From: Selaginella tamariscina
Taxonomy: Eukaryota; Streptophyta; Lycopodiopsida; Selaginellales; Selaginellaceae
Direction: 5' to 3'
Assembly (NCBI GenBank): GCA_003024785.1
Contig: PUQB01000131.1
Location: 452,501 to 516,500, forward strand
Length of the DNA: 64,000 nt
How positions within the stretch are numbered: position 1 is the first letter of the stretch; each line of letters starts with the position of its first letter. Below the pieces are notes generated by a model, which saw only the letters and a list, made by a program, of their open reading frames with translations, was not told the DNA's origin and ran no database searches. This document shows, in pieces, positions 2,959 through 51,147 of this stretch. Position numbers and translations under genes: made by a program.

Positions 2959-3549
2959 GTGGGTGTCATAGTTTTTACTATGACTCAACTCTTTACTTTG
3001 GACGTTGACTGTTATTACCTATTGTACTATGTTGATAAGCTCTAGATATAGTAGGAAACAGGCCCGCTTAGTGCACTTGGGTATCTAGTGATGGTTCGGC
3101 GGGGTCATTAGGTATTTACAGGAAACTCTAGGCGAAGCTAGAACTTACCTTCTAGAAAACTCTTACCCTGGTTTTTCGTGTCCCGATTGGGTTAATGGTT
3201 TTTCGGTGAGTTCGGCATGTCGGATATGTTTAGAAATACCCCTAGGTTTGACAGGTTAGGGTTTAGGGGTCGATGAATAACTCACCAAGTATGTTCCCTC
3301 TGGGAATGAGATTTCAATGCTAGCCCACTTATGTAAACAGGGGGGCCTCTGTCACATAAATAAGGTAGTATATAGGAGTGAGGTTCCTGGGTTCATGACT
3401 GAGCTCGTTACTCTTCTCCCGGTGCAAGCTTTAGCTTGTGTCGTCAAGGCACAACACTCTGTTGTGCTGCCCTAACTTCCAGATGCCAGGGGTACGTCCC
3501 ACTTTCGGGGTAACTTACCCTTAACGTTGGCGAATCCATGCCTGGAAGG

Positions 3550-4091
3550 TGTCAAGCCACGATCCAGGAACCAGGAAGCAAGTAGGATTCCAGGGACAGG
3601 AAGGCTTGACTCAGGAACAGGACGGATCCAGGATCAGGATGGGATCCGGGAGCAAGATAGCAGAATAGGAACTGGGACCTCAGGAATCAGGAGTAGGACA
3701 GGATTCAGGAGCGAGACAAGAACAGGACAGGATTCAGGAGCAAGACAGGAACCGGATAGGATCCAGGAGTAGGACAAGCAGGAGGCAAAGGAGCAAGACA
3801 AGATCAAGACAAGAGCAAGGAACAAAATAATCGTAGAATGACTGGTGTTGATAGTAACTGATTGTACAACAATTAGGTCGGAGCTTTTATGCTCACAACT
3901 CCAAGCTAATCTGATCATGAGCCTAATCTAGTCACTAGCCAAAATTGGTCATCCTTATCCTATAGGAATATCCTGCGGAATATCCTGTGGCATATCCTGT
4001 GGGAATATCCTGCGGGCCGAAATCCTGTATCGCATATCCTGTAGGCTGAATCCTGTATGTCGTATCCTGTATCCTGTATCGGGTCGTGACA
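3550..4091 (-). repeat. Element A 3' LTR (542 bp)
   Basis: Starts TGTCAAGCCACGATCC and ends GGGTCGTGACA as written on the plus strand. It has two simple-repeat zones: AGGA/CAGGA-rich 3560-3830, and ATATCCTG-type repeats at 3958-4080. Confidence 0.93.
3958..4080. repeat. ATATCCTG minisatellite in the U3 of the A family
   Basis: About ten copies of a TCCTG core in 120 bp, many as ATATCCTGYRGG. The same zone occurs in the other A-family LTRs at 9541-9690, 24340-24515 and 33885-34005 with different unit numbers. On the element strand it lies upstream of the TATA-like box, the position of an enhancer array, but a regulatory role is inference. Confidence 0.7.
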
Positions 4092-4104
4092 GCACCTCCT
4101 CCCT
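4092..4104 (-). other. Polypurine tract of element A
   Basis: On the element strand AGGGAGGAGGTGC directly abuts the start of the 3' LTR, the position needed for plus-strand priming. Confidence 0.7.
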
Positions 4105-4124
4105 AAGGACGAGTTCCACGAGTC

Positions 4125-4245
4125 TTGGGACCTGGTTTAGCAGATAACGCCGATGGAAAGCAGCAACTTTGGAAGAAGCATGGAGTAAGTTGGATGCAGG
4201 TTCCCAAGTGCGATCGGTAGGCAAATAACCTTTCCAATCCACCAA
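4125..4245 (-). pseudogene. Element A chromodomain at the integrase C-terminus
   Basis: The frame reads VDWKGYLPTDRTWEPASNLL, the conserved core of a chromodomain (WKGY ... TWEP), followed by an FHRRY segment. In chromoviruses this module reads histone marks and directs integration into heterochromatin. It is separated from the integrase core by a frameshift near 4630. Confidence 0.85.
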
Positions 4246-4632
4246 GTATTAAAGTTGACGGCGATGAAGACGAGAATCAAGGATGGCTGCAACTTCGTAC
4301 TCAGGTTCACCAGCAATGACCACAGGAGGGGAGGAGAAGAAGCACGACCGGAAGAGAAGAAGGATGATACGGCTCCAACAAGGAAGTGTGAAACACAGGA
4401 TGAAGTTTCACCGTAGGTGGTAATCGAGTCGGAAAGCTACAGGATTTACCTCCGCCACGATCCTGTAAGGGCCCAATCGTTGAAAATCCAACTTAGAAGA
4501 AGGCCTGTTGGTGCGAATGTGTCGACGAAGAAGCCACACGAGATCACCAATCTTGTATGCAGGTGCCGGCTGACGGTGAGCATCAGCATGATGCTTGTAC
4601 CGTTCCTGTGCCTGTGAAGATGAACCTGGAGA

Positions 4633-5560
4633 TCATCCTGTACCTGCGAAGATGCTGGAGACGATCCTGTACTGCAGGAGCGGAAGAAGGAGAAGCAGGA
4701 GAGCAAAGTCAAAACGTGGATGGTGGCCTGTAAGAGCAAAGAAAGGTGTCTGGCCTGTAGATGCGTGAATGGAGTTGTTGTAGGCAAACTCCGCCATAGG
4801 AAGAAGGTCCAACCAATTATCCTGTTGGTAACTGATGAAGCAACGAAGATATTGCTCCAAGGTCTGAATTGTGCGTTCTGACTGTCCATCAGTTTGCGGG
4901 TGATATCCTGAAGAAAGATCCGCTTTAACCTGTAGACTCCGAAGAAGCTCTCGCCAAAACTTGGACATGAATTGTGGACCTCGATCGGAAACAATGCTCT
5001 CAGGAAGACCATGATGTCGGAACACCTCACGGATCACCAACTCGGCAGTTGTCTGACCTGTAGCTGTCTTGTTGCAGGGTAGGAAATGAGCCTGCTTGGT
5101 GAAACGGTCAACCACCACAAGAACTGCATCGAATCCACGAGAAGGAGGAAGATCTGTGAGGAAATCCATAGAAATGGATCTCCAAGGAGCAGAAGGAACA
5201 GGAAGAGGACGAAGAAGACCAGAAGGTGCATGAGGCATCTTCGACCTGTTGCAGGTGTCACAACTCCGTACAAACCTTTCCACAAAACCTCGCAACCCAG
5301 GCCACCAATAGTTGCGAGTCACCAACTCAACTGTCTTGGCCACACCAAAATGTCCTGTAGCCGGGGTATCATGACAATCCTGTACCACACGAGTCCTGCA
5401 AACACCAACAGGAACGTACAGGAGACCTTCCCGGTACAGGAGTCCATCCTGTATGGTGAACAGGTTGTAGTCTGGACGGGAACTGGAGGAAGAGGAACTT
5501 GCAACGTCAGGATGAATGTGTGAGAACACATTCTTTGCCAAGTCGTCTGTAGCCAACTGC
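4633..5560 (-). pseudogene. Element A integrase
   Basis: Carries the H2C2 zinc module ([11 protein letters not shown] then SCDTCNRSK) and the catalytic core with all three acidic residues visible in context: [16 protein letters not shown] and [12 protein letters not shown]. It joins proviral DNA into the host genome. The reading frame is open from RNase H (start of the open stretch near 6000) to 4633, then breaks before the GPY-like tail and chromodomain. The length to that point is normal for Ty3/gypsy. Confidence 0.92.
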
Positions 5561-5659
5561 GAACGGACGTCCTGTAGGAGTGTTGAATTTGCTGGAGCCT
5601 GATGAACCTGCAGTGCCGCAAGCCGGAATCGATCAGGACCCAACAACACTTGCCTTTGA

Positions 5660-6090
5660 CAGTCAAATGCAGGATCGCCCGGGCTTGGTGCAAGGTAAGA
5701 GCGCCTAGACAATGCGTCCGCCTTGCCATTCCGAAAACCGGGCCTGTAGACGATGACGAAGTCAAAACGTGATAGGAACTCCGCCCACCTAGCCTGTCGC
5801 CGACTGAGAACTCGAGCCGTTTGAAAGTACTCCAGGTTCTTGTGATCCGTAAGAACTTGTACAGGATGTGCAGCACCTTCCAGGAAATGCCGCCACTCCT
5901 CAAACGAATCCACAATGGCCTTGAGTTCCTTGTCATGAATCTCGTAATTGATCTCCGCCGACAGGAACTTACGAGAGTGAAAAGCTACAGGATGAAGCAA
6001 CTTGTCCTTCCAACTTGCGATAGGACGGATCCTACTGCAAAATCCGAGGCATCTGCTTCAACGAAGAAAGGACGAGAAGGATCAGGATGT
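5660..6090 (-). pseudogene. Element A RNase H
   Basis: Motifs seen: [18 protein letters not shown], then [33 protein letters not shown] and KADALSRR. These are the acidic catalytic blocks of the Ty3 RNase H that removes genomic RNA from the RNA-DNA hybrid. One frameshift lies near 6000 between the first block and the rest. The same domain in element B is where a Y LTR inserted. Confidence 0.9.
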
Positions 6091-8073: not shown

Positions 8074-9060
8074 CTTCGCGGCTCCTAGACGAAGTGGACA
8101 TTGAAGTTTTCCGACTGAACTTCAGCTTCGGCTTCACGCGTCTTGAACTTCTGGCTTTATTAGGACATTCCGCCACCTTGTGTCCTGCTGCACCACAATA
8201 CAAGCATAGGTTCTCACCCCGACGACGTTGCTTCTCAGCAGTTGAAAGTGGGCCACGCTTGGATTTGTTAACCTCCATAGGAACTGCTCCAGAAGGTGTC
8301 GTAGGAACATGTGCTACGGCTACAGGATTGTTGGCAGGAACTGCTGACGGAATTTTTCCTGACGGCGCTCGAACAAACGGTTGTCGCAGCGAACGGCCTG
8401 TTGCATGATCTCCGCTAACGTTTGAGCATCCGGTAACGTAAGGAGAAGGTCCTTCACATCATCCCTCAGCCCAAAACGGAAGTGTTCGATCAATGCAGTC
8501 TCGTCCCATGGAATGTTCGTGCACAATTGCTGGAATTCGGATGCATAAACGGAAGCTGGTCTGGATCCTTGTGTGAGCCTTCCGTAACTTGTGCATGCAG
8601 AACGGTACTTATCAGGATCTCCAAAACAGGCTTCAAAGGCAGCCACGAAACCTTCAAAGTCTTCCATCAATGGGTCGTCACGCTCCAGCAAGGGAGCAAC
8701 CCAAGCTCGTGGAGATCCACTTAGTAAGGATGCCAAAAGGCCAACCTTTTGTGCATCCGTCGAGTAGCGGCGTGGTTGCATGCGGATCAAGAGCCGGATC
8801 TGATTCAGGAAACCTTGGAAATCGGCACGGTTGCCACTGAACTTCTCTGGCATGCTGATCTTCGGCTCCGGAGAAAAGTTCGATGAAGAAGGAACCACCG
8901 ATGCCTGAGAGAGAGCCTGCGCAGCAGCCTTGGAGGATGCATCAGCAGCTGCATGTGCCGCATGGGTGGAGCCTTGCAGATCGGTGACCACTTGGCGCAA
9001 AGTGGCCAGCTCATGAAGCAACATTTGGTGCTCGCGTTGAAAGTGCTCAAAATCAGCCAT
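7994..9060 (-). pseudogene. Element A Gag with CCHC zinc knuckle
   Basis: The start codon at 9060 follows a leader of about 98 nt after the 5' LTR. The first 246 codons are open: an N-terminal coiled-coil-like segment (FQREHQMLLHELATLRQVV), then a retrotransposon gag domain (SPRAWVAPLLERDDPLMEDF, and DETALIEHFRFGLRDDVKDL). After a frameshift near 8320 comes the nucleic-acid-binding knuckle CLYCGAAGHKVAEC (CX2CX4HX4C) and a basic tail. Gag forms the particle that packages the RNA. Confidence 0.9.
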
Positions 9061-9144
9061 GATCTTATGAAAGAAAGAAAGGAGAAAAACGAAGGAAAAG
9101 AATCAAGGAAAAAAAAGTAGCTGGAAACGAAGAGCTATGAAAGC

Positions 9145-9156
9145 AGTTACTATCAA
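9145..9156 (-). promoter_or_regulatory. Self-complementary primer-binding site of element A
   Basis: Two nucleotides after the 5' LTR the element strand reads TTGATAGTAACTG. This does not look like the initiator-Met site used by most plant LTR elements. It is the perfect reverse complement of CAGTTACTATCAA inside the LTR (about 9448-9436). The pairing partner lies where transcription should start, which is the layout of self-primed reverse transcription in the Tf1/sushi group. Confidence 0.75.
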
Positions 9157-9158
9157 AC

Positions 9159-9695
9159 TGTCAAGCCACGATCCAGGAACCAGGAAGAAGTAGGATTCCA
9201 GGACAGGAAGGCTTGACTCAGGAACAGGACGACAGGACAGGAGGATCCGGAGCAAGATAGCAGAATAGGAACGGATCAGGAATCAGGAGTAGGACAGGAT
9301 CAGGAGCAGACAGAACAGGACAGGATCAGGAACAAGACAGGAAAGGATAGGATCCAGGAGAGACAAGAGCAGGAGGCAAAGGAGCAAGACAAGACAAGAC
9401 AAGACAAGAACAAGAATATCGTAGAATGACTGGTGTTGATAGTAACTGATTGTACAACAATTAGGTCGGAGCTTTTATGCTCACAACTCCAAGCTAATCT
9501 AGTCATGAGCTAATCTAGTCATAGCCAAAATTGGTCATCCTTATCCTATAGGATATCCTGTAGGATATCCTGCGGAATATCCTGAGGAATATCCTGTGCA
9601 TATCCTGTGGAATATCCTGGCCGAAATCCTGTATCGCATATCCTGTAGGCTGAATCCTGTATGTCGTATCCTGTATCCTGTATCGGGTCGTAACA
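9159..9695 (-). repeat. Element A 5' LTR (537 bp)
   Basis: TG..CA ends and the same internal layout as the copy at 3550-4091, with several short deletions in the AGGA tract. On the element strand it holds the ATATCCTG array, a TATA-like box and the putative RNA start. Confidence 0.93.
9436..9479 (-). promoter_or_regulatory. LTR core promoter: TATA-like box and predicted RNA start
   Basis: The element strand has CATAAAAG at 9479-9472 and, about 31 nt downstream, AGTTACTATCAA at 9447-9436. The same spacing occurs at 24579-24622 in element B and at 33815-33772 in the third LTR. If transcription starts at this block, the RNA 5' end is exactly the sequence complementary to the primer-binding site. 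Confidence 0.65.
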
Positions 9696-10580
9696 GAAGG
9701 TCTTGTCGGAATGCACGTTCCAAGAGGCAGAGGTTGAGGCTTGTCTCCAGCCTCCTCCTCCACGCCAAGCTAGGTGTAGCATTCATGGTTAAGCAAGCAC
9801 ATCCGTGTCCTTGTCCAACTGTGGGCGTGGGATCTTGTTTGACAAGTTCACCTTACCATTTCCTGAGGGTTCACTAAGGGGTTCTAGAGTTGGCATTTAG
9901 GAGCCACGTTTGTGGCACTTGGTGCAACTCTTGAATCTAAGGGCTATGGCATGATAGCCCACATCGGGGAAGGCAGTGTCACATGGAGATGTAACACTGG
10001 GCTAAAACGTCACATGGTACAACGCCTGAGACACGCCCTTTGGGGTTATGTCATGGGCTTGTCGCCAAGGGGTTGGATACTTTAGCAATAGACATGTTTG
10101 TGCTTACACTAGGGTGCTAAACCTTGGGCATCCGCTCAAGGGAGGTTAGGTCTCATAACTAGGTGTGTTTTGGCACACTTGGCTAGGGGAGTGTTCTCCT
10201 TGGAATTCAAGGGTTGAACAACCTAAACATGTTAGTAGGAGCCCTTTCGTGAGGCACTCGCAAGGTCATGTGCTTAGGGTTATCCCAACCTAGCCTTAGG
10301 GAGTTTGCTTAGCAGAACACTCGTGTCCGCCTACGGCGCACACTCGTGTCCTCACTAAGTACTAGTCCTAGGTCTAGGGTATAACTTGGCCACTCAAACC
10401 CTTAGGGGTTAGTCGTGGTTCAAGGTACCCCTTGTTGCCCTAAAGGGGTTGTACTCCTGGATGAGGGTGATTCCTCAAGGGGTAAGTGACGATGCCTTAG
10501 CTCTGTCCAGGGGTATGTGTGGAACACACATCTCCTTGATGGGGGTTAGGGCATGAGCTTGTCTAGGTCTTCTAGGGCAA

Positions 10581-18066: not shown

Positions 18067-18900
18067 TCGTACTTTAATTCAATTATGGTTTGAAATGGAT
18101 TAATGGATCGAGGTATATATTTGGTATGATGATGTGTAGAGATACTTATGTATACTTGTATATAGATTAGTATTATACATCAATGCATGTACATTTAGTA
18201 TACAGGTGGGTGGTTACGTCCAAGACAGGGAAAAGATGGATTTGGCTGCTGCAAAGAGGTAAAGCTATATAATATAAGTGTGTATGTGTGTGTGTGGAAC
18301 AAATCATACAATCAGTACGCACATATCACAACAGCAAATAATATATGCTAGAGTATACAGACATACATACAAATGTGTTCTGAGAATTGAATGGTAACAC
18401 ACTGACACTGTTTCTATTACCAGTTTCTCTATAAGACTACCGTACAGGGACGCCGTGTGTCATGTGACACAATGTTGTCTGCATAGGCAAAGGAGATATT
18501 CAAGAATATGCTTATTTGTGATGATATCAGCATCTTTGCAAAGTCTTTGATGACCAAGCAAGCCAATGAGATGCTTGAGAAGATTCCTAAGTGGAACCTT
18601 GTATGTTGGAACTCACTTATGATAGGTACTTATATATTTATTACTTGTGATGAGTTTTTAGTTATATTGTGCATGTGCCCTATGCGGGTGTATGTTTCTA
18701 TATTATATGCTCTTGTGTGTGTGTGCTTACAACAAGTTTATAACAGGGATATGCTCAGTGTGGGCATGTAGAGGAGGCACGGTGGCTACTTGACAGGTTG
18801 CCTGAGAGAGACATTGCAGCATTTTCCAACATGTTACGGACGTATGCACATAGCAGTTAGTACAACGAGGTCTTGGAGCTCTTCAGAGTAATGGATGTGT
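18067..18900 (+). pseudogene. PPR-gene paralogue fragment, broken
   Basis: Exon-like blocks on the plus strand: 18087-18125 resembles the last visible exon of the PPR gene at the window start (NGLMD context) but with a stop; 18207-18262 reads GGYVQDREKMDLAAAK; 18487-18624 reads AKEIFKNMLICDDISIFAKS and ends at a GT donor; 18749-18892 follows an AG acceptor and reads GYAQCGHVEEARWLLDRLPE, then SNMLRTYAHSS, an in-frame TAG (18858-18860) and YNEVLELFR. The 124-bp intervening sequence at 18625-18748 is GT-AG. Blocks of PPR type split by introns, with stops, indicate a decayed intron-containing relative rather than a processed copy. Confidence 0.7.
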
Positions 18901-24333: not shown

Positions 24334-24862
24334 TGTCACAACCCGATACAGGATGCAGGATTCCGGATAAAAGATATAGGATACAAAATACATGATATGC
24401 GCACAGGATATGCCTATAGATATACCTACATGATATGCCAAAAGGATATACCTACAGGATATTCTTATAGGATATTCTTACAGGATATGCTACAGGATAT
24501 ACCTTCAGGATAAGGGTCACCACTTTTAGCTCATGACTAGATTAGGCTCATGACCAGATTAGCTCTTGGAGTTGTGAGCATAAAAGCTCTGACCTAATTA
24601 TTGTACAATTAGTTACTATCAACATCAGTCTTTTTACGATCAATCTTGTCTTGTTCTTGCTTCCTGTCCTGCTCTTGTCTTGTTCCTAGTCCTTGTCCTG
24701 CTCGAGTCAAGCCCCTTGCTCTTGGACCGTGGCTGGTTCCTAGTTCCTATCATGCTCCAGTTCCTATCCTGTTCCTTGTCTTGCTCCTTGTCTTGCTCTT
24801 GAGTCAAGCTTTTTGTTCTCAGAATCTTGCTCTTTTCCTTGTTCTTGGATCGTGGCTTAACA
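24334..24862 (+). repeat. Element B 5' LTR (529 bp)
   Basis: Begins TGTCACAACCCGATACAGG and ends CGTGGCTTAACA. It contains the ATATCCTG-type array in reverse sense (about 24345-24515), CATAAAAG at 24579-24586 and AGTTACTATCAA at 24611-24622. Confidence 0.9.
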
Positions 24863-24864
24863 AT

Positions 24865-24876
24865 TTAATAGTAACT
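24865..24876 (+). promoter_or_regulatory. Self-complementary primer-binding site of element B (11/12)
   Basis: TTAATAGTAACT, two nucleotides after the LTR, pairs with AGTTACTATCAA at 24611-24622 except for one G-to-A change. The same arrangement is in element A and in the LTR at 33514. Confidence 0.7.
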
Positions 24877-24964
24877 GCTTTCATAGCTCCCTAATTTCCA
24901 ATTATTCTTTTTTTCCTTAGCTTTCCTCCCTTGTTTTCCTTTTCTTTCCTTTCTTTCACGAATC

Positions 24965-33440: not shown

Positions 33441-34012
33441 TAACATCACTGCTTGTTAAGGAAAAAAAAAGTAACTAGAAATCGGGGAGCTATGAAAGCA
33501 GTTACTATCAAACTGTCAAGCCACGATCTAAGAACAAGGAAGAGAGCAAGATTCTGAAAACAAGAAAGCTTGACTCAGGAGCAGGACAGGAACTAGGATC
33601 TCAAGTAGGACAAGGAGCAGGACAGGAACTAGGATCTCAGAAGTAGAACAAGGAGCAGGACAAGGAGCAAGACAGGAACTGGAGCAAGATAGGAACTGGA
33701 GCAAGATAGGAACTAGGAGCAAGACAAAAGCAAGAGACAAAACAAGGAACAAGATAATCATAAAATAATTGTTGATAGTAACTGATTGTACAACAATTAG
33801 GTCGGAGCTTTTATGCTCACAACTCCAGAGTTAATCTAGTCATGAGCCTAATCTAGTCATGAGCTAAAATGGTGAACCTTATCCTGAAGGTATATCTTAT
33901 AGCATATCCTGTAAGCATACCTGTTAGGTATGTTCTATAGCATATCCTGTGGGCATATCCTGTATTTTGTATCCTGTATCCGGAATCCTACATCCTGTAT
34001 CGGGTCGTGACA
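33441..34012 (-). mobile_element. A-family 5' LTR with leader, remainder lost
   Basis: A 499-bp LTR (33514-34012) in minus orientation, preceded on the window's left by about 50 nt of leader similar to element A. TATA-like box at 33815-33808, putative RNA start at 33783-33772, and primer-binding site at 33511-33500 that is a perfect complement. No gag follows. A relic of a third family member. Confidence 0.85.
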
Positions 34013-39302: not shown

Positions 39303-39512
39303 TGTAAGATACTGTATATTAGGTAACGTACCGTATATACGCATGTGTATATACGCACATGCGTAGTGACACATGGGTGGTGATCTGGCCCCCATGTGTG
39401 TCAGCGCCACGTGTCGCATGTTGTGCCACGTGGCAGGAGACCTCCTGTAATATAGCAGGGTTTTTTTGTAAACTAATATATCAGATTTTTCATTAATATA
39501 TCTGCTCTTTCA
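39303..39512 (+). repeat. Element C 5' LTR with paired G-boxes
   Basis: 210 bp. CACGTG at 39408-39413 and 39427-39432; the second lies in the palindrome GCCACGTGGC. Upstream is a near-palindromic TATACGCATGTG/CACATGCGTA segment and downstream an AT-rich TATA-like region. G-boxes bind bZIP and bHLH factors in plants. Confidence 0.88.
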
Positions 39513-39530
39513 TTGGTGGAGAAGTTGGGT
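39513..39530 (+). other. Putative primer-binding site of the C/D/E family
   Basis: TTGGTGGAGAAGTTGGGT follows the LTR directly and is conserved in D (44791) and E (51091, one change). It begins TGG one base in, as expected for a tRNA 3' end, but it is not the initiator-Met site and I cannot name the tRNA. No complement is seen in the LTR. Confidence 0.55.
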
Positions 39531-39564
39531 ATTCCTTTCTTCCGCATTTTTTTTTCTTGTTTCC

Positions 39565-40645
39565 ATGACAATGAACATGGAGACGGCTTTTAGCATTATT
39601 GCTACTGCTATTGATGCACAAACTAAGTTGTTGGAGCGCTTCGTTGAGGGTCCGTCCTCCTCTTCCCCGTCTGAGCCTCATGCCGGGGGATCTGCTTCTA
39701 GTACTCCTTCATCTTCTTCACAGGCCACAAATCCGAGGGTTCGACCCCGATCTTTTTGTGGTGATCCGGGAGATGATGTATACCACTGGTTTGATCATTT
39801 CCAAGTCATTGTTCGTTACCATGGTTGGGATGAGGCCCGTGCTCTCAGAGAATTCCCTACATGTTTGGAAGGCCCTGCGCTCAAGTGGTATAATGGATTG
39901 GCTGCGGAGATTCAAGCCAATAGTAATCGGTTAACGGAATGTCTCAAACGTACGTTTGGCAAAGTTGAGGATTCAGATGATGCTTTCCAACAACTGCATG
40001 CGATACGACAACATCCTGGTGAGTCTGTTATGCGGTTCAGTATTAGGTTCGGGGATTTAGTTCGGCGTGCATATCCTAACATGCCTGAGCCTATTAAGCT
40101 CGGTATGTTATGGCCAACTATGCGACCCGAACTTGTTCGATTCGTTCGGGCTCTTCGTCCTACCACATTGGAGGAAGCTTTTGCACTAGCTCAACGTTTT
40201 GAGTTGGTGCCTGGTGAGGGCCGTGTTCCCCTTGGGTTACCTGCTCCTCTTGTTCAGCGTGCTGATCCAATGGAGGTTGATGCTGCTGCATATGTGCCCG
40301 CACGACAAGCCTTTCGTGGTCGACCTCGGGGCCCACCCCGTGACCACCTCCACGAAATCGTCCTGCACCTGCTCCAGTTCCTGCCCGTGGTGGTCAAAAT
40401 CCACGGATTCGTGACAGGAGGAATCGGAACAATGCAGGTCAACCCAATCAAGTTCATTGTGGGCCTGTTGGGCACCTGGACATACTTGGCGGGCATGCGA
40501 TGTGTATCCTGATTGGCGTCCACCACATCCAGGCTGGCGACCATATGTTCCGGATGGTGTACCTGTGGCGGCCATTATGTCTGATGATGAGCTTCCAGAT
40601 GATGACGCTTCTCTTGCGGGTGGATCTGTTGCGGAAAACCAGTAA
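39565..40645 (+). pseudogene. Element C Gag
   Basis: ATG 39565 begins MTMNMETAFSIIATAIDAQT, followed by a Ser-rich segment and a gag domain (YHWFDHFQVIVRYHGWDEAR, CLEGPALKWYNGLAAEIQAN, GESVMRFSIRFGDLVRRAYP). The knuckle at about 40453-40500 (in D: CWACWAPGHTWRAC, CX2CX4HX4C) is shifted out of frame here by small deletions near 40340 and 40452. The gag frame is open for about 250 codons. Confidence 0.88.
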
Positions 40646-40739
40646 TCGTACGGGCGACGGAGGGATCCCGTGCGATGGAAACTCCACCTCCATGTTTTTT
40701 CCTATGCATATCAAGGGTTGCAAGTTCCACCAAATCATC

Positions 40740-41060
40740 CAGTTTTCACATTTTCTGCACGAGTGAATGATGTTTCAGTCACAGTACTTGTGGATACAGG
40801 ATCTAGCATGTCTTCCATAACTACTTCTCTGGCGCATCGGTGCTCATTACCCTTGAGACGAGCAGATAAGGTCTTGCACATTTTATATGGTAATGGGCAG
40901 TCTCGTGCAGTATCACAGTACACCACTTCGACTACACTGTTATGGGTGCCAACTGTAAGTTTCCCTCTGGGTCTCTTAGGGTTGTCCCTTCCCAGGTCTT
41001 TGACATCATTCTGGGATGTGATTGGTTAAAGCAGTCGAAAGGTACATGTGATTTTTCACT
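40740..41060 (+). pseudogene. Element C protease
   Basis: Active-site block VTVLVDTGSSMSSITTSLAH (about 40780-40840) and the downstream FDIILGCDWLKQSKG (about 41000-41040), typical of retropepsins. A one-base deletion near 40940 breaks the frame relative to D. Confidence 0.87.
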
Positions 41061-41299
41061 CTCTCCTCCTGTATTACGCTTGGAGTCTGTGTCTTTGCAG
41101 TCTGTTCCTTTACGTCCAGAGAAGTTTGTTGCTGTTTGTATCACGCATACAGCTCCTTTGATTCCGGTCTTGGGATGGTGTTCATCTCAACAGGTTCAAA
41201 TGCCGGATCCGTCACCTGAGTGTCGAGCACACTGCATCGAACAACTTAAGAAACAGTATGCAAGTTTGTTCAAATTTGATCTGTCCCAAGGTGCACGTG

Positions 41300-42000
41300 T
41301 GAAGACTCGACACTGTATACCCACCGGCAATGCAAAGCCTTTCAAAGTCCCGGTTCGACGCAGGTCACCAAAGGAGTTATCAGCCATGCGAACAGCTGTT
41401 ACTGATATGATTGGTAAACGAGTGTGTCGTCACGGAGTCCATGGGCATGTGAACCTCATTTGGTTCCCAAGCCTGATGGATCTCTCCGATTTTGTGTGGA
41501 TTACCGACCTCTTAACGATGTTACCATCAAAGATGTCTATCCACTTCCGAACTCTGCCGATCTATTAGATCGTTTGGGTCAGAGTCGATGGTTTACTAAG
41601 TTGGATTTGGCATCAGGATATTGGCAGGTTCCTATGACTGAGGAGGATATTCCAAAAACGGCCTTCCGGACACCATTTGGTCTTTACGAGTTTTTGGTTA
41701 TGCCTTTTGGATTGACTTCAGCTCCTGCCACCTTTCAACGCATGATGGATGAGCTTCTTTCCGATATGCCTGATATCACTGCCGATTTTATCGACGATGT
41801 GCTCATTCATGGGTCTGGTTCTTGGGAGGATCACATTCGTGATGTACGGCGCGTTCTTGATCGATTTCGAGAAGTTGGCCTGAAGTTGAAACTTGAAAAG
41901 TGTGTGTTTGGTTCGACCGACACCACTTACTTGGGTTACCGTATATCTCGAGAGGGTTTACAGGTGGATCCAATGAAGTTGCGAGCTGTTCGAGAGTTCC
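41300..42000 (+). pseudogene. Element C reverse transcriptase
   Basis: RT blocks in order: PWACEPHLVPKPDGSLRFCV, DYRPLNDVTIKDVYPLP, WFTKLDLASGYWQVPM, YEFLVMPFGLTSAPATFQRM, catalytic ADFIDDVLIHGS (about 41780-41815) and TTYLGYRIS. A 4-nt deletion near 41430 separates the first part from the palm; element D is intact here. Confidence 0.92.
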
Positions 42001-42033
42001 CGTCCCCGTACAGTACAGGAAGTCCAACGTTTC

Positions 42034-42981
42034 TTGGGCACGGTGCAGTACTTGGGTCGATTTATCGATCATCTCACTGATCGAACTGCCCCTCTTCGGG
42101 AGTTAGTTCGTCCACAGGTATCTTTCAGGTGGACTCGCAGGTGTCAGCAGGCATTTGACCAGTTAAAAGAGTTCCTGACAACTCCACCATTGCTTCAATA
42201 CCCAGATTTTACTCGTCCGTTCATTTTACGAGTAGATGCCTCAGATGTTGGTATTGGTGGTGTATTGATGCAAACTGATGCTGTGGATTCTTCAATTCGA
42301 CACCCGGTGGCTTACATTAGTCGAGTACTCACGCCGGCTGAGCGGAATTATTCCACTACTGAAAAAGAATGCCTTGCTGCTGTTTGGGGTTTTGAACGAC
42401 TTCATGCCTACTTACATGGGAGTGAAACGCTTTTGGAGTGTGATCATGCTGCTGTCACTTCCTTATTAAAACGGAAGAATTTAGTGGGTCGCGTAGCCAG
42501 ATGGGCATTACGTCTCCAGGTATATAACTTTAAGGTGGTGCACAGGCCTGGGCGAACAATGGTGGATGCGGATGCACTTTCTCGAGCACCCCTCTCCGAT
42601 TCCACTTTGCCTGCTCATGCAGTAGCTGCAGCATTCGGTTTGATACAAGCCCCTCAGGTATTCGATGCCGACTTACCATCCTTGGAACAGTGGCAGGATG
42701 CTCAAAAACATGAACCATGGACGAGGCAATTACGCGATGCGTTTGCAATTCCGTCTTCCGAACCTCGGTTTCGACAATATCATGCTCAGTTTCGACTTCA
42801 GGATGGTTTATTGTATTTTATTGGGACAAATCCAGAGGACAATGGCGTTTGTGTACCCTCTACATATGTTCCACACCTTCTTCGAGCATATCATGATTCA
42901 CCTATTGTTGGAGGTCATCTTGGTCACAACGAGTGTTGGAGAAGCTGCGCCGATCATTTTATTGGCCAGCATGCGTGGTGA
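42034..42981 (+). CDS. Element C RNase H and pre-integrase region (open frame)
   Basis: A 315-codon open frame with RFIDHLTDRTAPLRELVRPQ, RNase H blocks FILRVDASDVGIGGVLMQTD, PVAYISRVLTPAERNYSTTE and VVHRPGRTMVDADALSRAPL, then the spacer and start of the integrase zinc region (IVGGHLGH). A frameshift after about 42925 breaks the H2C2 module, so this open frame is a fragment of the polyprotein. Confidence 0.9.
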   Translation: MGTVQYLGRFIDHLTDRTAPLRELVRPQVSFRWTRRCQQAFDQLKEFLTTPPLLQYPDFTRPFILRVDASDVGIGGVLMQTDAVDSSIRHPVAYISRVLTPAERNYSTTEKECLAAVWGFERLHAYLHGSETLLECDHAAVTSLLKRKNLVGRVARWALRLQVYNFKVVHRPGRTMVDADALSRAPLSDSTLPAHAVAAAFGLIQAPQVFDADLPSLEQWQDAQKHEPWTRQLRDAFAIPSSEPRFRQYHAQFRLQDGLLYFIGTNPEDNGVCVPSTYVPHLLRAYHDSPIVGGHLGHNECWRSCADHFIGQHAW

Positions 42982-44026
42982 TGTGATCAGGTATATTCAA
43001 AGTTCCCACTTGTCAAACTCGGAATTCCTCTACGACTCGGGCCATGGGAGTGTTGGAATCCATCAATGTCTCTCGCCCTTTTGAGTTAATTGCAGTGGAT
43101 TTAATGGGACCTTTTCCACGTTCTTCTCAAGGTAACCAGTACATCATTGTTGTATCCGATTATTTAACTCGATGGGTGAGGTTGGTGCTCTTCCGGATGC
43201 AACTGCCATGTCAACAGCTTTGTTTCTGTTCGATAATGTGGTTTTGCAGCATTCTTGTCCAGAGCGGATGTTATCAGACAATGGCCCCGCTTTCATTGCA
43301 GAGGTATTCCGAGTGTTGTGTGAGAGGTTAGGGGTAAAACATTCATTTGCCTCTCCGTATCATCCACAAACTGATGGTTTGGTGGAGCGATTGAATCGGA
43401 CCTTCAAGGGTATGATCTCGAAGTATGTGAACTTCAATCACACGGACTGGGATTGGTATTTGCGATGTTTGAGATTTGCTTATGTAACAGGCATTCAGAG
43501 TTCGATTGGTATCTCTCCATTCAAGGCATTGTATGGATATGATCCTAAGTTGCCTAGTGAATTGGGGTTATCATCGAATCTGCCACGTGCCGAGGATGCA
43601 AAGATGTGGGCTCGACATTTGGATGCTGTTTTGCCTCTTCTGCGTGCAGAGTCTGCTGAACATCTTGGTCGAGCTCAAATGCGGCAGCAATCTTCTTACA
43701 ATGCACGACATCAAATTCCACCAGATTTTGCTGACGGTGACTTAGTCCTGGTACGTTTTCCCAAGCTGACTGCACCTGGGCTTGCAACTGGTTTATTACA
43801 CAAGTGGCTTGGTCCCTACCGAGTACTCCGAAAGGTTGGTCCTCAGGTATATCAAGTAAAGTTGGTGGGATCTCATGAGGTTGAGATAGTTCACGTGGTT
43901 CGAATGAAACGGTTTGTCGTTCGAGACTCGTTGAGTACATTTGGTCATACCTTAGATGGCCCAGCTCACACGGATCCAGGACCATCAGATCCATCACCAT
44001 CTACACAACCGCAGAGGGGAGGATAG
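42900..44026 (+). pseudogene. Element C integrase
   Basis: Catalytic acidic residues seen in IAVDLMGPFPRSSQGNQYII, RMLSDNGPAFIAEVF and GLVERLNRTFKGM. Then comes a GPY/F-like tail (LLHKWLGPYRVLRKVGPQVY) and a Pro/Ser/Asp C-terminus ending at 44026, with no chromodomain. Frame breaks lie near 42925-43010 (zinc module) and 43175. The last 284 codons are open. Confidence 0.9.
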
Positions 44027-44232
44027 TGTAAGATACTGTATATTAGGTAACGTACCGTATATACGCATGTGTATATACGCACATGCGTAGTGACACATGG
44101 GTGGTGATCTGGCCCCATGTGTCAGCGCCACGTGTCGCATGTGTGCCACGTGGCAGGAGACCTCCTGTATATAAGCAGGGTTTTTTTGTAAACTAATATA
44201 TCAGATTTTCATTTAATATATCTGCTCTTTCA
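44027..44232 (+). repeat. Element C 3' LTR
   Basis: 206 bp; differs from the 5' LTR mostly by one- to two-base indels. CACGTG at 44129-44134 and 44147-44152; TATATAAGCAGG follows. Confidence 0.92.
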
Positions 44233-44269
44233 CATTATAATATAATGACAAAATTATATATATATAGAG

Positions 44270-44546
44270 GCCAGAGAACGGAGGCGGGTGAGAAATGAGC
44301 GCAGGTTCTCCTCAATTCCCAAGTTTCCCCAAGAATCCCATGAGAATCCAGACCTCAGTATGAGCTACAGGAAGAAGGACAACAGGATGGGAATGAGGTG
44401 TGCGTGTGTGTGGAGGAATGTGATGAATCTGTTGCTATTGTAGACAAAAATGTGGCGTTTGGGAGTACATTGTCAAATCTTGAGGGAATTTTGCTCGCAA
44501 ATGCACCCAGCTGCACCACATCCATAGCCCCCAGCTTAACTTCCAT
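44270..44546 (-). pseudogene. Exon-like block between elements C and D
   Basis: The minus-strand frame from ATG 44546 reads MEVKLGAMDVVQLGAFASKI and PSRFDNVLPNATFLSTIATD, then enters an AC repeat. Further on, 44345-44270 in another frame reads NLGIEENLRSFLTRLRSLAS. Both look like genuine coding sequence on the same strand as the exon-like blocks at 38.5-39.0 kb. Protein family unknown. Confidence 0.4.
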
Positions 44547-44587
44547 ATGTATGTTAATTAATAATAATCAATTATATATTAAACATC

Positions 44588-44790
44588 TGTAAGATACTGT
44601 ATATTATGTAACGTAATGTATATACGCATGTGTATATACACACATGCATAGTGACACATGGGTGGTGATCTGGCCGCCATGTGTCAGTGCCATGTGTTGT
44701 ATGTGTGCCATGTGGCAAGAGGTCTCCTGTATATAAGCAGGGTTTTTGTAGCTTAATGGATTGACATTTTAATATATATCGGCTCTTTCA
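44588..44790 (+). repeat. Element D 5' LTR
   Basis: 203 bp. Both G-box positions read CATGTG instead of CACGTG, the change expected from deamination of methylated CpG. Confidence 0.92.
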
Positions 44791-44842
44791 TTGGTGGAGA
44801 AGTTGGGTATTCCTTTCTTCCCCTTTTCCTTTTCGTGTTTTC

Positions 44843-45960
44843 ATGACGATGAATATGGAGACGGCGTTTAGCATTATTGCTACTGCTATTGATGCACAAA
44901 CAAAGTTGTTGGAGCGCTTTGTTGAGGGTTCGTCCTCCTCTTCCCCGCCTGAGCCTCCTGCCGGGGATCTGCTTCTAGTACTCCTTCGTCTTCTTCACAG
45001 GCCACAAATCCGAGGGTTCGACCCCGATCTTTTTGTGGTGATCCGGAGATGATGTATACCACTGGTTTGATCATTTCCAAGTTATTGTTCGTTACCATGG
45101 TTGGGATGAGGCCGTGCTCTCAGAGAATTCCCTACATGTTTGGAAGGCCCTGCGCTCAAGTGGTATAATGGATTGGCTGCGGAGATTCAAGCCAATAGTA
45201 ATCGGTTGACGGAATGCCTCAAACGTACGTTTGGCAAAGTTGAGGATTCAGATGATGCTTTCCAACAACTGCATGCGATACGACAACATCCTGGTGAGTC
45301 TGTTATGCGGTTCAGTATTAGGTTCGGGGATTTAGTTCGGCGTGCATATCCTAACATGCCTGAGCCCATTAAGCTCGGTATGTTATGGCCAACTATGCGA
45401 CCCGAACTTGTTCGATTCATTCGGGCTCTTCGTCCTACCACATTGGAGGAAGCTTTTGCACTAGCTCAACGATTTGAGTTGGTGCCTGGTGAGGGCCGTG
45501 TTCCCCTTGGGTTACCTGCTCCTCTATTCAGCGTGCTGATCCAATGGAGGTTGATGCTGCTGCATATGTGCCCGCACGACAAGCCTTTCGTGGTCGACCT
45601 CGGGGCCCACCCCGTGGACCACCTCCACGAAATCGTCCTGCACTGCTCCAGTTCCTGCCCGTGGTGGTCAAAATCCACGGATTCGTGACAGGAGGAATCG
45701 GAACAATGCAGGTCGACCCAATCAAGTTCATTGTTGGGCCTGTTGGGCACCTGGACATACTTGGCGGGCATGCGATGTGTATCCTGATTGGCGTCCACCA
45801 CATCCAGGCTGGCGACCATATGTTCCGGATGGTGTGCCTGTGGCGGCCATTGTGGCTATGATGAGCTTCAGATGACGAAGCCTCTCTTGCAGGTGGATCT
45901 GTTGCGGAAAACGAGTAATCGTACGGGCGACGGAGGGATCCCGTGCGATGGAGACTTCAC
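44843..45960 (+). pseudogene. Element D Gag
   Basis: Same protein as element C Gag. One-base losses near 44965, 45050 and 45112 break the N-terminal half; the second half (45140-45530) is open with GESVMRFSIRFGDLVRRAYP. The knuckle at about 45727-45770 is complete. Confidence 0.85.
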
Positions 45961-46019
45961 CTCCATGTTTTTTCCGCTATGCATATCAAGGTTTGCAAGT
46001 TCCACCAGATCATCCAGTT

Positions 46020-46435
46020 TTCACATTTTCTGCACGGTGAATGATCTTTCAGTCACAGTGCTTGTGGATACAGGATCCAGTATGTCTTCCATAACTGCTT
46101 CTCTAGCGCATCGGTGCTCATTACCCTTAAGACGTGCAGATAAGGTCTTGCACATTTTATATGGTAATGGGCAGTCTCGTGCAGTATCACAGTACACCAC
46201 TTTGACTACGCTGGTTATGGGTGCCAACTGTAAGTTTCCCTCTGGGTCTCTTAGGGTTGTCCCTTCCCAGGTCTTTGACATCATTCTGGGATGTGATTGG
46301 TTAAAGCAGTCGAAAGGTACATGTGATTTTTCACTCTCTCCTCCTGTATTACGCTTGGAGTCTGTGTCTTTGCAGTCTGTTCCTTTACGTCCAGAGAAGC
46401 TTTTGCTGTTTGTATCACGCATACAGCTCCTTTGA
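46020..46435 (+). CDS. Element D protease (within an open frame)
   Basis: Contiguous frame holding the LVDTGSSMSSITASLAH active-site block and FDIILGCDWLKQSKG; unlike in C the two halves are in one frame. A shift near 46402 separates it from the RT frame. Confidence 0.85.
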
Positions 46436-47385
46436 TTCCGGTCTTGGGGTGGTGTTCATCTCAACAGGTTCAAATGCCGGATCCGTCACCTGAGTGTCGA
46501 GCACACTGCATCGAACAACTTAAGAAACAGTATGCAAGTTTGTTCAAATTTGATCTGTCCCAAGGTGCACGTGTGAAGACTCGACACTGTATACCCACCG
46601 GCAATGCAAAGCCTTTCAAAGTCCCGGTTCGACGCAGGTCACCAAAGGAGTTATCAGCCATGCGAACAGCTGTTACTGATATGATTGGTAAACGAGTGTG
46701 TCGTCCGTCACGGAGTCCATGGGCATGTGAACCTCATTTGGTTCCCAAGCCTGATGGATCTCTCCGATTTTGTGTGGATTACCGACCTCTTAACGATGTT
46801 ACCATCAAAGATGTCTATCCACTTCCGAACTCTGCCGATCTATTAGATCGTTTGGGTCAGAGTCGATGGTTTACTAAGTTGGATTTGGCATCAGGATATT
46901 GGCAGGTTCCTATGGCTGAGGAGGATATTCCAAAAACGGCCTTCCGGACACCATTTGGTCTTTACGAGTTTTTGGTCATGCCTTTTGGATTGACTTCAGC
47001 TCCTGCCACCTTTCAACGCATGATGGATGAGCTTCTTTCCGATATGCCTGATATCACTGCCGATTTTATCGACGATGTGCTCATTCATGGGTCTGGTTCT
47101 TGGGAGGATCACATTCGTGATGTACGGCGCGTTCTTGATCGATTTCGAGAAGTTGGCCTGAAGTTGAAACTTGAAAAGTGTGTGTTTGGTTCGACCGACA
47201 CCACTTACTTGGGTTACCGTATATCTCGAGAGGGTTTACAGGTGGATCCAATGAAGTTGCGAGCTGTTCGAGAGTTCCCTCGTCCCGTACAGTACAGGAA
47301 GTCCAGCGTTTCTTGGGCACGGTGCAGTACTTGGGTCGATTCATCGATCATCTCACTGATCGAACTGCCCCTCTTCGGGAGTTAG
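46432..47385 (+). CDS. Element D reverse transcriptase (intact open frame)
   Basis: 317 open codons covering the whole RT: DYRPLNDVTIKDVYPLP, KLDLASGYWQVPM, VMPFGLTSAPATFQ, FIDDVLIHG and TYLGYRIS. Only the extreme C-terminal end shifts, near 47285. The best preserved enzyme of this family in the window. Confidence 0.92.
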   Translation: MIPVLGWCSSQQVQMPDPSPECRAHCIEQLKKQYASLFKFDLSQGARVKTRHCIPTGNAKPFKVPVRRRSPKELSAMRTAVTDMIGKRVCRPSRSPWACEPHLVPKPDGSLRFCVDYRPLNDVTIKDVYPLPNSADLLDRLGQSRWFTKLDLASGYWQVPMAEEDIPKTAFRTPFGLYEFLVMPFGLTSAPATFQRMMDELLSDMPDITADFIDDVLIHGSGSWEDHIRDVRRVLDRFREVGLKLKLEKCVFGSTDTTYLGYRISREGLQVDPMKLRAVREFPRPVQYRKSSVSWARCSTWVDSSIISLIELPLFGS

Positions 47386-47900
47386 TTCGTCCACAGGTAT
47401 CTTTCAGGTGGACTCGCAGGTGTCAGCAGGCATTTGACCAGTTAAAAGAGTTCCTGACAACTCCACCATTGCTTCAATACCCAGATTTTACTCGTCCGTT
47501 CATTTTACGAGTAGATGCCTCAGATGTTGGTATTGGTGGTGTATTGATGCAAACTGATGCTGTGGATTCTTCAATTCGACACCGGTGGCTTACATTAGTC
47601 GAGTACTCACGCCGGCTGAGCGGAATTATTCCACTACTGAAAAAAATGCCTTGCTGCTGTTTGGGGTTTTGAACGACTTCATGCCTACTTACATGGGAGT
47701 GAAACACTTTTGGAGTGTGATCATGCTGCTGTCACTTCCTTATTAAAACGGAAGAATTTAGTGGGTCGCGTAGCCAGATGGGCATTACGTCTCCAGGTAT
47801 ATAACTTTAAGGTGGTGCACAGGCCTGGGAACAATGGTGGATGCGGATGCACTTTCTCGAGCACCTCTTCGATTCCACTTTGCCTGCTCATGCAGTAGCT
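47310..47900 (+). pseudogene. Element D RNase H
   Basis: FILRVDASDVGIGGVLMQTD is intact. A one-base deletion at about 47583 shifts the rest (C has PVAYISRVLT here). HRPG and DADALSR-type blocks follow in another frame. Confidence 0.87.
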
Positions 47901-47952
47901 GCAGCATTCGGTTTGATACAAGCCCCAGGTATTCGATGCCGACTTACCATCC

Positions 47953-49280
47953 TTGGAACAGTGGCAGGATGCTCAAAAACATGAACCATGGACGAGGCAA
48001 TTACGATGCGTTTGCAAATCCTCTTCCGAACCTCGGTTTCGACAATATCATGCTCAGTTTCGACTTCAGGATGGTTTATTGTATTTTATTGGGACAAATC
48101 CAGAAGACAGATGGCGTTGGCTGTGCCCTCTACATATGTTCCACACCTTCTTCGAGCATATCATGATTCCTATTGTTGGAGGTCATCTTGGTCACCAACG
48201 AGTGTTGGAGAAGCTCCGCAGATCCTTTTATTGGCCTAGCATGCGTGGTGATGTGATCAGGTATATTCAGAGCTGTCCCATTTGTCAAACTCGGAATTCC
48301 TCTACGACTCGGGCCATGGGGGTGTTAGAATCCATCAACGTCTCTCGCCCTTTTGAGTTAATTGCAGTGGATTTAATGGGACCTTTTCCACGTTCTTCTC
48401 AAGGTAACCAGTACATCATTGTCGTATCTGATTATTTAACTCGTTGGGTGGAGGTTGGTGCTCTTCCGGATGCAACTGCCCTGTCAACAGCTTTGTTTTT
48501 GTTCGATAATGTGGTTTTGCAGCATTCTTGTCCAGAGCGGATGTTATCAGATAATGGCCCCGCTTTCATTGCAGAGGTATTCCGAGTGTTGTGTGAGAGG
48601 TTAGGGGTAAAACACTCATTTGCCTCTCCATATCATCCACAAACTGATGGTTTGGTGGAGCGATTGAATCGGACCTTCAAGGGTATGATCTCGAAGTATG
48701 TGAACTTCAATCACACTGACTGGGATTGGTATTTGCGATGCTTGAGATTTGCTTATGTAACAGGCATTCGATTGGTATCTCTCCATTCAAGGCATTGTAT
48801 GGATATGATCCTAAGTTGCCTAGTGAATTGGGATTATCATCGAATCTGCCACGTGCCGAGGATGCGAAAATGTGGGCTCGACATTTGGATGCTGTCTTAC
48901 CTCTTCTGCGTGCAGAGTCTGCTGAACATCTTGGTCGAGCTCAAATACAGCAACAATCTTCTTACAATGCACGACATCAAACTCCACCAGACTATGCTGA
49001 CGGTGACTTAGTACTGGTACGTTTTCCCAAGCTAACTGCACCTGGGCTTGCAACTGGTTTATTACATAAGTGGCTTGGTCCCTACCGAGTTCTCCAAAGG
49101 TTGGTCCTCAGGTGTATCAGGTACAGTTGGTGGGATCTCATGAGGTTGAGATAGTTCACGTAGTTTGAATGAAACGGTTTGTTGTTCGAGACTCGTTGAC
49201 TACATTCGGTCATACCTTAGATGGCCCAACTCACACGGATCCAGGACCATCAGATCCATCACCATCTACACAACCGCAGA
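47953..49280 (+). pseudogene. Element D integrase
   Basis: Open from 47953 to 49011, with a complete zinc module (HLGHQRVLEKLRRSFYW, then SCPICQTRNS) and the catalytic DLMGPF, SDNGPAF and VERLNR blocks. A frameshift near 48770 moves the tail to the 48726-49154 frame, and another near 49095 breaks the C-terminus. Confidence 0.9.
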
Positions 49281-49290
49281 GGGGGGATAA

Positions 49291-49494
49291 TGTAAGATAC
49301 TGTATATTATGTAACGTAATGTATATACGCATGTGTATATACACACATGCATAGTGACACATGGGTGGTGATCTAGCCGCCATGTGTCAGTGCCACGTGT
49401 CGTATGTGTGCCACGTGGCAGGAGGTCTCCTGTATATAAGCAGGGTTTTTGTAGCTTAATGGATCTGACATTTTAATATATATCGGCTCTTTCA
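49291..49494 (+). repeat. Element D 3' LTR
   Basis: 204 bp with both CACGTG boxes kept; preceded by the polypurine GCAGAGGGGGGATAA. Confidence 0.92.
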
Positions 49495-49498
49495 CATC

Positions 49499-50913
49499 TA
49501 ATTTAAAAGAAAATATTTTGGTAAATATTAAACTGTAGATAATGATTCTTTTTCAGATATATACATTATTACCATTGTAGGTAATTTTTTATATATATTT
49601 AAATGGTGCTGAAGAATTTTTATAAATTTGAAAATTTAATAAATGGTACTTTAATTTGCACATACAAAAATATACATATATCCATAGCACACATAAAATT
49701 AGTAAATGTAATACGGTACATATATAAATAAATATGGACTCTCTCTCTCTCACCTTCTCTGTCTATATATATATATATATATAAATTAGATGTTATATGT
49801 ATATGTGTGTATATTTTGTAAGTATGAATGAATTTAGATGCATGCCCCACATATACATATACATAGAGTTTATATGTACAAAGTTTATTTACAATATACT
49901 ATTATCATAGTAGTGTTTTTTAAAAATTTATATTTGTGCATGTGAACGTCCAAAAATCTAATTTTAAATAAAGAATATTCGGAGTTTAATGAATCATTGT
50001 AAACATATTTACTGTAGTTACCTTACATATGTAATTTATCATAATTTTACTGTTTTTATGCTAAAATGTGAGCTATTCAAATGGTAAAAAGAAAGAAACT
50101 ATCCAAGAAAAATATAAAAAGTTAATAATTTATTAAAACACAAATGAACTTAAACATAATATCATAATTGATAATTATTATATAATTATTTTCCTAATTA
50201 AGTCAAATGAAAATTACACATATACCTCTGAAATTTCTCGTATTTCTATACTTCCAAAATTCTAAAATTTACATTTTTATTTTTGAAAAAGTTTACATAA
50301 ATGCATTTATCAAACTTCAACACACTTTAAAATATAATAGAAAATATAATAAATTTCAATTATAACATTTCAAATTTTAACCATTATAAATAAAAAAGAC
50401 TTTCAATTTTTTTAAAAAATAGTTATAAAAAACAATTATTATAAAGAATTTTATATAATATTTCTAACTTTTTATTTAAGCAAATCCAAATATTTTTCAT
50501 ATTATTTAAAATTTAATAAAAAATTCTTTAGGCTTGGTAAGTGTGGGTTGCGGACTATAATGTTAGCATAGTAGTCTTTTTATCATTGTTAATTTTGTTG
50601 TGCTAGAATTTAAAATGAAATAGAGGGATAATAATTTAATATATATTTAATCTATAATTTTCTTTAATGAAATAGAATAAAAGAAAATAATTATATATAT
50701 CTAATTAATATTTATGTTTAATTAATTTTGTTTTAAACTATTTAATGATAAAACTTATATATTTATTAAAAAAAAAAGTGAATGAAGTTTTAAATTAAAG
50801 TTTTATAAATAAAAATGTAAATTTCAAAACTATATAACTAAAAAAGATTTATATCATTATTATAATCTTTCACAATAGTTCAAAACATAAAATTTTCTAT
50901 TAAAAACAAATAT
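49499..50913. other. AT-rich spacer
   Basis: Very AT-rich with short TA and CT tracts (49740-49785). No gene, repeat family or RNA seen. Confidence 0.65.
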
Positions 50914-51147
50914 TGTAAGATACTGTATATACGCATGTGTATATACACACATGCATAGTGACACATCTAACCCCCATGTGTCAGTGCCATGTGTCACATG
51001 TGTGCCACGTGGTAGAAGGTCTCCTATATATCAACATGGTTTTGAAGCTAAATAAAGCATCACATTCTGTGATATTTATCTGTTCTTTCATTGGTGGAAA
51101 AGTTGGGTATTCCTTCTCTTCTACCTCCCCCTTTTCTTGTTTTCATG

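Follow-up and report, generated by a model that had tools for sequence, protein, structure and literature searches.

Self-priming of reverse transcription has been demonstrated in Tf1 of the fission yeast Schizosaccharomyces pombe (PMC4600332, PMC7175516), a Ty3-type element whose primer-binding site (PBS) lies behind the 5′ LTR and is complementary to the first nucleotides of the RNA; 11 nt are used there, with the cut between nucleotides 11 and 12 (PMC7175516). Tj1 was proposed to work like Tf1 (PMC4600332), and self-priming was also proposed for Tcn1 of Cryptococcus neoformans (PMC7175516). For plants, Neumann et al. (2019; PMC6317226) described the majority of the Tcn1-clade elements of moss and club-moss (REXdb) as lacking tRNA sites and predicted them to self-prime; these elements have a chromodomain and group with Tf1/sushi. 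The same source predicts self-priming for another plant lineage, TAR (Houba, Osr-1), which differs in belonging to the Ty1/copia superfamily. For SM-Tcn1 of Selaginella moellendorffii, Novikova et al. (2010; PMC2864245) reported evidence neither of self-priming nor of a tRNA PBS, and their PCR survey gave no Tcn1-like clones in ferns. The original prediction knew of no characterisation of the mechanism in lycophytes; that it is new to them is not supported, self-priming having already been predicted for the club-moss Tcn1 clade (PMC6317226). Within the open-licence literature, PMC6317226 and PMC2864245 were the only papers found on self-priming of Selaginella LTR retrotransposons.

The window analysed here, a stretch of 64,000 nucleotides from Selaginella tamariscina, contains on its minus strand an LTR retrotransposon with both LTRs, element A (Table 1). 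The family to which it belongs is very probably a Tcn1-like chromovirus that would begin reverse transcription by self-priming as in Tf1. Element A has the TG...CA LTRs, the 5-bp target-site duplication and the order RNase H before integrase of Ty3-type LTR retrotransposons, and it resembles Tf1/Tf2 in the Tf2-1-like SH3 piece of its integrase. EYEV and VDWKGY, possible parts of the aromatic cage of a chromodomain, can be read in its frames; the 5′ piece of the chromodomain alone gives no PF00385 match. SM-Tcn1, which we compare by description, is a Tcn1-clade element likewise with TG...CA LTRs (440 bp) and a T-rich leader (PMC2864245); it differs in that its authors found neither kind of priming site. 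Unlike the 11 nt of Tf1, the block proposed here is 12–13 nt long (11–12 nt in the relatives described below) and is followed by the LTR end and a 2-nt spacer before its complement, as read from sequence alone. Many genomic places close to element A's integrase give equal scores, with open frames of up to 1,410 aa. The equal scores and long frames of its kin may be a sign of recent activity, element A itself being older, with 44 differences between its 3′ and 5′ LTRs over 519 aligned columns.

Table 1. Positions, in the window, of element A, of the related copies B and C, and of a contrasting family (D).
Feature	Position	Strand	Remarks
Element A 5′ LTR	9159..9695	-	TGTTAC...TTGACA, 537 bp
Element A 3′ LTR	3550..4091	-	542 bp
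Target-site duplication CCTTC, 5′ side of element A	9696..9700	-	
Target-site duplication CCTTC, 3′ side of element A	3545..3549	-	
TATA-like CATAAAAG, element A 5′ LTR	9472..9479	-	first base 31 nt from R block
R-start block CAGTTACTATCAA, element A 5′ LTR	9436..9448	-	13 nt; predicted RNA 5′ end
R-start block CAGTTACTATCAA, copy in element A 3′ LTR	3848..3860	-	
Spacer GT, element A LTR to PBS	9157..9158	-	2 nt
Predicted self-primer binding site TTGATAGTAACTG, element A	9144..9156	-	exact reverse complement of R block
gag ORF, element A	8320..9060	-	Retrotrans_gag PF03732
RNase H-integrase ORF, element A	4633..6000	-	RT_RNaseH, Integrase_H2C2, rve
Tf2-1-like SH3 piece of integrase, element A	4411..4632	-	PF24626, 7.9e-10
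Chromodomain, element A	4081..4407	-	two pieces split by a stop; PF00385 in 3′ piece, 1.1e-9
Element B 5′ LTR	24334..24862	+	
R-start block TAGTTACTATCAA, element B	24610..24622	+	decayed
PBS TTAATAGTAACTG, element B	24865..24877	+	decayed
LTR C, a 5′ LTR	33514..34012	-	then ~56 nt matching element A's leader, no match beyond
R-start block CAGTTACTATCAA, LTR C	33772..33784	-	
PBS TTGATAGTAACTG, LTR C	33499..33511	-	
Family D LTR (another Ty3 family), contrast	39303..39525	+	one nt, then TGG-starting tRNA-type PBS TGGTGGAGAAG from 39514

According to the original prediction, a block within the 5′ LTR, about 31 nt past a TATA-like box, has its exact reverse complement two nucleotides behind that LTR. 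In element A all 13 of 13 nt agree, the distance from the TATA-like box is as predicted, and the interval proposed (9145–9479) was correct to within one base. The TATA distance and the edge of the PBS together point to the A at the second base of the R block as the likeliest RNA start. A perfect pair had likewise been proposed for LTR C, where R and PBS are fully complementary. The claim of a single mismatch in element B stands for the 12-mer; over 13 nt there is an additional G-U at the first base. Both changes in the R and PBS blocks of element B are C:G to T:A. Alignment of the three LTR sequences (A, B and C) shows ~74–83% identity, so that they represent one family, and we reject counting them as independent cases.

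A chance match between R block and PBS was rejected on three counts. Firstly, the window has 8 places that match the 13-mer with up to two mismatches; shuffled sequence averages 2.2, and none of 100 shuffles reached 8. Secondly, when the LTR letters were shuffled 1000 times, no shuffle equalled 13 nt for A or C; element B did not pass this exact-match test (1000 shuffles). Thirdly, the 13-mer is found 4,950 times (2482 + 2468) in the genome (300,702,823 bp searched, in 1,391 contigs), and the reversed control pattern 8 times (7 + 1). The PBS with base 13 intact is present in 1,016 copies genome-wide in one exact leader context. Among the 21 5′ LTR–PBS pairs read in the host genome and the window, both blocks are exact in 16, an altered PBS faces an intact R block in 4, and the remaining one is element B; the 16 perfect pairs do not measure a decay rate, because the regions concerned (L067–L086, L179–L186) were picked for an intact 13-mer. 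One further row of the original 22, L072, was a false fuzzy match and was removed. Five leaders that were anchored on the integrase and not on the block, taken mainly from odd-scoring matches, carry the same R–PBS pair, perfect in L189 and L190 and with one change each in L187, L188 and L191. No second self-primed family with a different block was found among the leaders read, all of which carry the block of element A (protein queries L001 and L009; best 97 of ~18,500–18,800 candidates each, within a narrow score range). Because the host leaders share one block, the evidence for covariation comes from the contigs of other organisms.

With 27 aligned integrases as the query, a scan of genome contigs yielded 58 loci; these are Ty3-like contigs within records titled as bacteria or archaea and presumably represent eukaryotic contamination. 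The loci nearest to element A lie in a MAG titled Trichormus sp. ERR2144891. As Trichormus azollae lives as a cyanobiont in the fern Azolla, the contigs with relatives of element A are likely fern host DNA. The species-representative Trichormus MAG (CAKZGI01) has at least 14 contigs with Ty3-type sequence (L001–L006, L012, L016, L017, L026–L028, L034 and L054), and the contigs of L001 and L005 share an exact 55-bp end overlap; these Ty3-type contigs are presumably contamination of a reference genome. Of two scans of viral contigs for relatives, one gave no match and the other 48 pattern matches with no relative among them.

In the integrase tree, element A and nine Trichormus-MAG loci form a 10-row plant clade (SH-aLRT 96), nested in a 31-row clade (SH-aLRT 95) with fungal (Absidia, Claviceps, Meripilus, Candolleomyces) and frog (Leptobrachium) proteins; the tree comes from a quick search without bootstrap, and its outgroup is not one-sided. 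Rows with fewer than 250 filled columns were left out, L048, L056–L058 and element B among them, and L021, L036, L045 and one Closterium row were also dropped. Judged by its integrase, element A groups with fungal and frog elements of the Tf1/sushi type, Tf1 and sushi themselves, like named Tcn1 sequences and named seed-plant chromoviruses, being outside the tree. The likeness to Tcn1/sushi-type elements, which live in other hosts, is thus drawn through these fungal and frog rows. Proteins of the zygnematophyte alga Closterium (P0009 and P0025) are among the nearer named matches, with 45% over about half the query, but the single Closterium row used for the tree is placed outside the Tf1/sushi clade.

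The junction of LTR and leader is present in six of the nine plant-clade MAG loci and absent from the contigs of L004, L012 and L016. In five of these six, we find perfect R–PBS pairs of 11–12 nt with sequences other than that of element A: the R block ACTCTTGATCAA of L001, AAGGCGAACAA of L002, L003 and L005, and AAGGTGAACAA of L017 each match their own PBS perfectly, and in the sixth locus, L006, the match is down to 7 nt. All five perfect pairs are found 2 nt behind an LTR end that reads TGACA, a TATA lying 33–34 nt upstream of the R block, and they share with element A the primer end CAA^CAC(C/A)AG, where element B has CATCAG and C has CAATTA. Between L003 and L017, one R base and the complementary PBS base both differ, a compensatory C-G to T-A change. 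When the R and PBS blocks of eight block types were crossed, 0–7 positions paired (4–7 among the four plant types), the only exception being L003/L017 with 10 of 11. The two blocks therefore vary jointly across related families and not independently, and as they keep matching with different sequences, R and PBS evolve together. Self-priming predicts such joint evolution, since the PBS of every new copy would be rewritten from the RNA 5′ end.

These sites were called from their position behind the LTR end and not from the inverted repeat alone, which means little, since the 58 loci also contain many inverted repeats of 10–15 nt within coding or unrelated sequence. Those of L007 and L014 fall within coding regions and those of L016 in other sequence, with no element leader in the part read; all of these were rejected as R–PBS pairs. 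Outside the plant clade, junctions were inspected where they were easily found, in L009, L041, L046 and L047 of the 58 loci. Self-complementary sites behind the LTR measure 13 nt in L009 and 14 nt in L046 within the wider clade, and 12 nt in L041 at its base, the last equalled in 1 of 1000 shuffles; that of L047 (9 nt, likewise equalled in 1 of 1000) is weak.

We also observed that part of the R block recurs once more in inverted form in U3, directly before the predicted start, in L002, L003, L005, L017 and L046 (7260–7280). This copy reads GTTCGCCTT...AAGGCGAAC, and in L017, co-varying, GTTCACCT..AGGTGAAC; it was not found in L001 and not seen by eye in element A. In the loci that have this copy, R at the 3′ end could pair with U3, leaving R at the 5′ end available to the PBS.

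Folding of the leader, from R to 30 nt past the PBS, agrees with the proposed pairing. In the predicted minimum free energy (MFE) structure of element A, 13 of 13 R–PBS pairs form (mean probability 0.95), and the helix is also complete in C, L001, L002, L003, L005, L017 and L041. Eleven of 13 pairs form in L009 and 9 of 13 in element B; the MFE structures of L046 and L047 are without an R–PBS helix. Priming could then proceed as follows. Transcription would begin at the R block of the 5′ LTR, with the TATA box 31–34 nt upstream, and the first 12–13 nt of the RNA, which are complementary to the PBS 2 nt behind the LTR, are predicted to pair with it. RNase H would cut the RNA after CAA, leaving a primer of 12–13 nt with its 3′ end on the PBS, a cut suggested by analogy with Tf1 and by complementarity that stops sharply at CAA^CAC. 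Minus-strand DNA would be extended from there into U5. Plus-strand DNA would finally copy the primer, so that the PBS of new copies is rewritten from the RNA 5′ end and the blocks stay matched while they drift. Such rewriting predicts both the covariation and an abnormal variation of the outermost PBS base.

The helix might instead be structural, serving the RNA in packaging, dimerisation or the control of translation, with the primer lying elsewhere. The stable R–PBS helix predicted by folding fits this idea, and covariation alone argues for pairing and not for priming. However, the paired site occupies the place expected of a PBS, 2 nt behind the LTR, its partner is the expected beginning of the RNA, and no tRNA-type site is seen behind element A's LTR; furthermore, the same geometry in Tf1 and Tj1 is described as priming (PMC4600332, PMC7175516). 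We regard a purely structural role as very improbable.

That the 3′ end of a host tRNA primes at the element A site, its likeness to the LTR being incidental, is very improbable, even though most plant LTR elements carry tRNA-complementary sites (PMC6317226). There is no TGG, with which a site for a tRNA 3′ end starts, within 38 nt behind element A's LTR, a result on which tRNA priming of this element was rejected; there is an exact LTR match instead, and the relatives retain such a match with other sequences. The best of 53 tRNA models matches 9 of 12 nt at an offset of 2, so that, within this incomplete set, no tRNA 3′ end fits the site better than the LTR does. The 53 models derive from 62 genomic matches and were indexed by name, which may have merged models with the same label; the set is biased, is without initiator Met and did not explain the PBS of family D, and is used as supporting evidence only. 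A primer from an internal tRNA piece, as the half-tRNAs known from some plant Ty1/copia lineages (PMC6317226), is scarcely credible, since A and C share no exact fragment longer than 6 nt with the same incomplete set, and the covariation with the LTR would go unexplained. Self-priming in place of a tRNA, as originally proposed, is thus favoured by the covariation of the blocks, the predicted leader fold and the lack of TGG behind the LTR.

Family D, which lies outside the clade of element A, provides a contrast: the PBS behind its LTRs has no self-match. L034 and L054 of the Trichormus MAG, also outside the clade, carry TGGTATCAGAGC as a candidate site. Family D itself is arranged in tandem (39303–51150 in the window), with LTR-like repeats at 39303, 44027, 44588, 49291 and 50910, two units that are 95.7% alike over ~5 kb, and a TGG-type PBS, TGGTGGAGAAGTTGGG. 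Elsewhere in the window, 61168–63930 holds four minus-strand ORFs of 157–344 aa with no Pfam match at E 0.1; for the 344-aa ORF, the one of the four that was searched, there was no homologue at E 0.001.

In the host copies, the PBS shows a pattern of its own at its outer edge. Substitutions of base 13, the partner of LTR base C1, affect 321 copies, and 100 listed of these have 79 C, 19 A and 2 T, whereas the 65 copies substituted at the interior control G7 have 64 A, 1 T and no C (change to C, 79/100 versus 0/65, Fisher p 8e-28). Loss of base 13 is seen in 70 copies and loss of base 11 in 8. Each control is one interior position (G7 for substitution, base 11 for deletion), and the base-13 spectra were tallied by eye. 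Ordinary PBS decay is thus mostly to A, and C and loss are peculiar to the outer edge. The leader reads TTTC in 82 and TTC in 11 of 100 listed of 162 C13 copies, TTTC in 57 and TTC in 40 of 100 listed of 1,016 G13 copies, and TTTC in 39 and TTC in 17 of 57 copies with base 13 deleted, so that C13 and the deletion each occur with both leader types. LTR base 1 remains C in three copies with base 13 altered or missing (L076, L082 and L191). Among the MAG relatives, complementarity ends at an A preceded by C, and in 5 of 5 perfect cases a C follows in the PBS; in L041, L009 and L047 the base after the match is not C.

The outermost PBS base is thus abnormally variable, which would be the expectation for a PBS copied from an RNA whose 5′ end has two start points. 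We tentatively suggest, as a possibility that is rather unlikely, that this edge preserves the RNA 5′ end in fossil form: starts at C1 or A2 (pyrimidine-purine rule) and a cap-templated C added on copying of the primer would yield G13, C13, the absence of base 13, and the C after the PBS in the five MAG relatives. Among the matches listed in the open-licence literature, no paper contained the term cap-templated. An older C13 subfamily accounts for the change of G13 to C equally simply, and is the plainer explanation. Among the listed copies, the TTTC leader is indeed commoner with C13 (82/100) than with G13 (57/100), but C13 and the deletion occur with both leaders. Under either account of the edge, complementarity has its boundary at the point where the RNA is expected to start.

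The mechanism and the clade were already known; within the open-licence literature, and with the plant Tcn1 clade compared by description, our additions are the block-by-block covariation, the contigs that probably come from a fern and the variable base at the outer end of the PBS. The nearest relatives of element A are probably fern DNA, from a group in which an earlier PCR survey had no Tcn1-like elements (PMC2864245). A variable base at the PBS edge offers a hint of the RNA start from DNA alone, and if the edge were a fossil RNA 5′ end, the start sites of self-primed elements would be readable from DNA alone and each copy would record its founding transcript. Plant self-priming, otherwise only predicted in the open-licence literature, gains the support of covariation in a very abundant family, with 1,016 PBS copies in one context. 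Elements that need no tRNA should evade control by tRNA fragments and should be able to vary their primer site freely.
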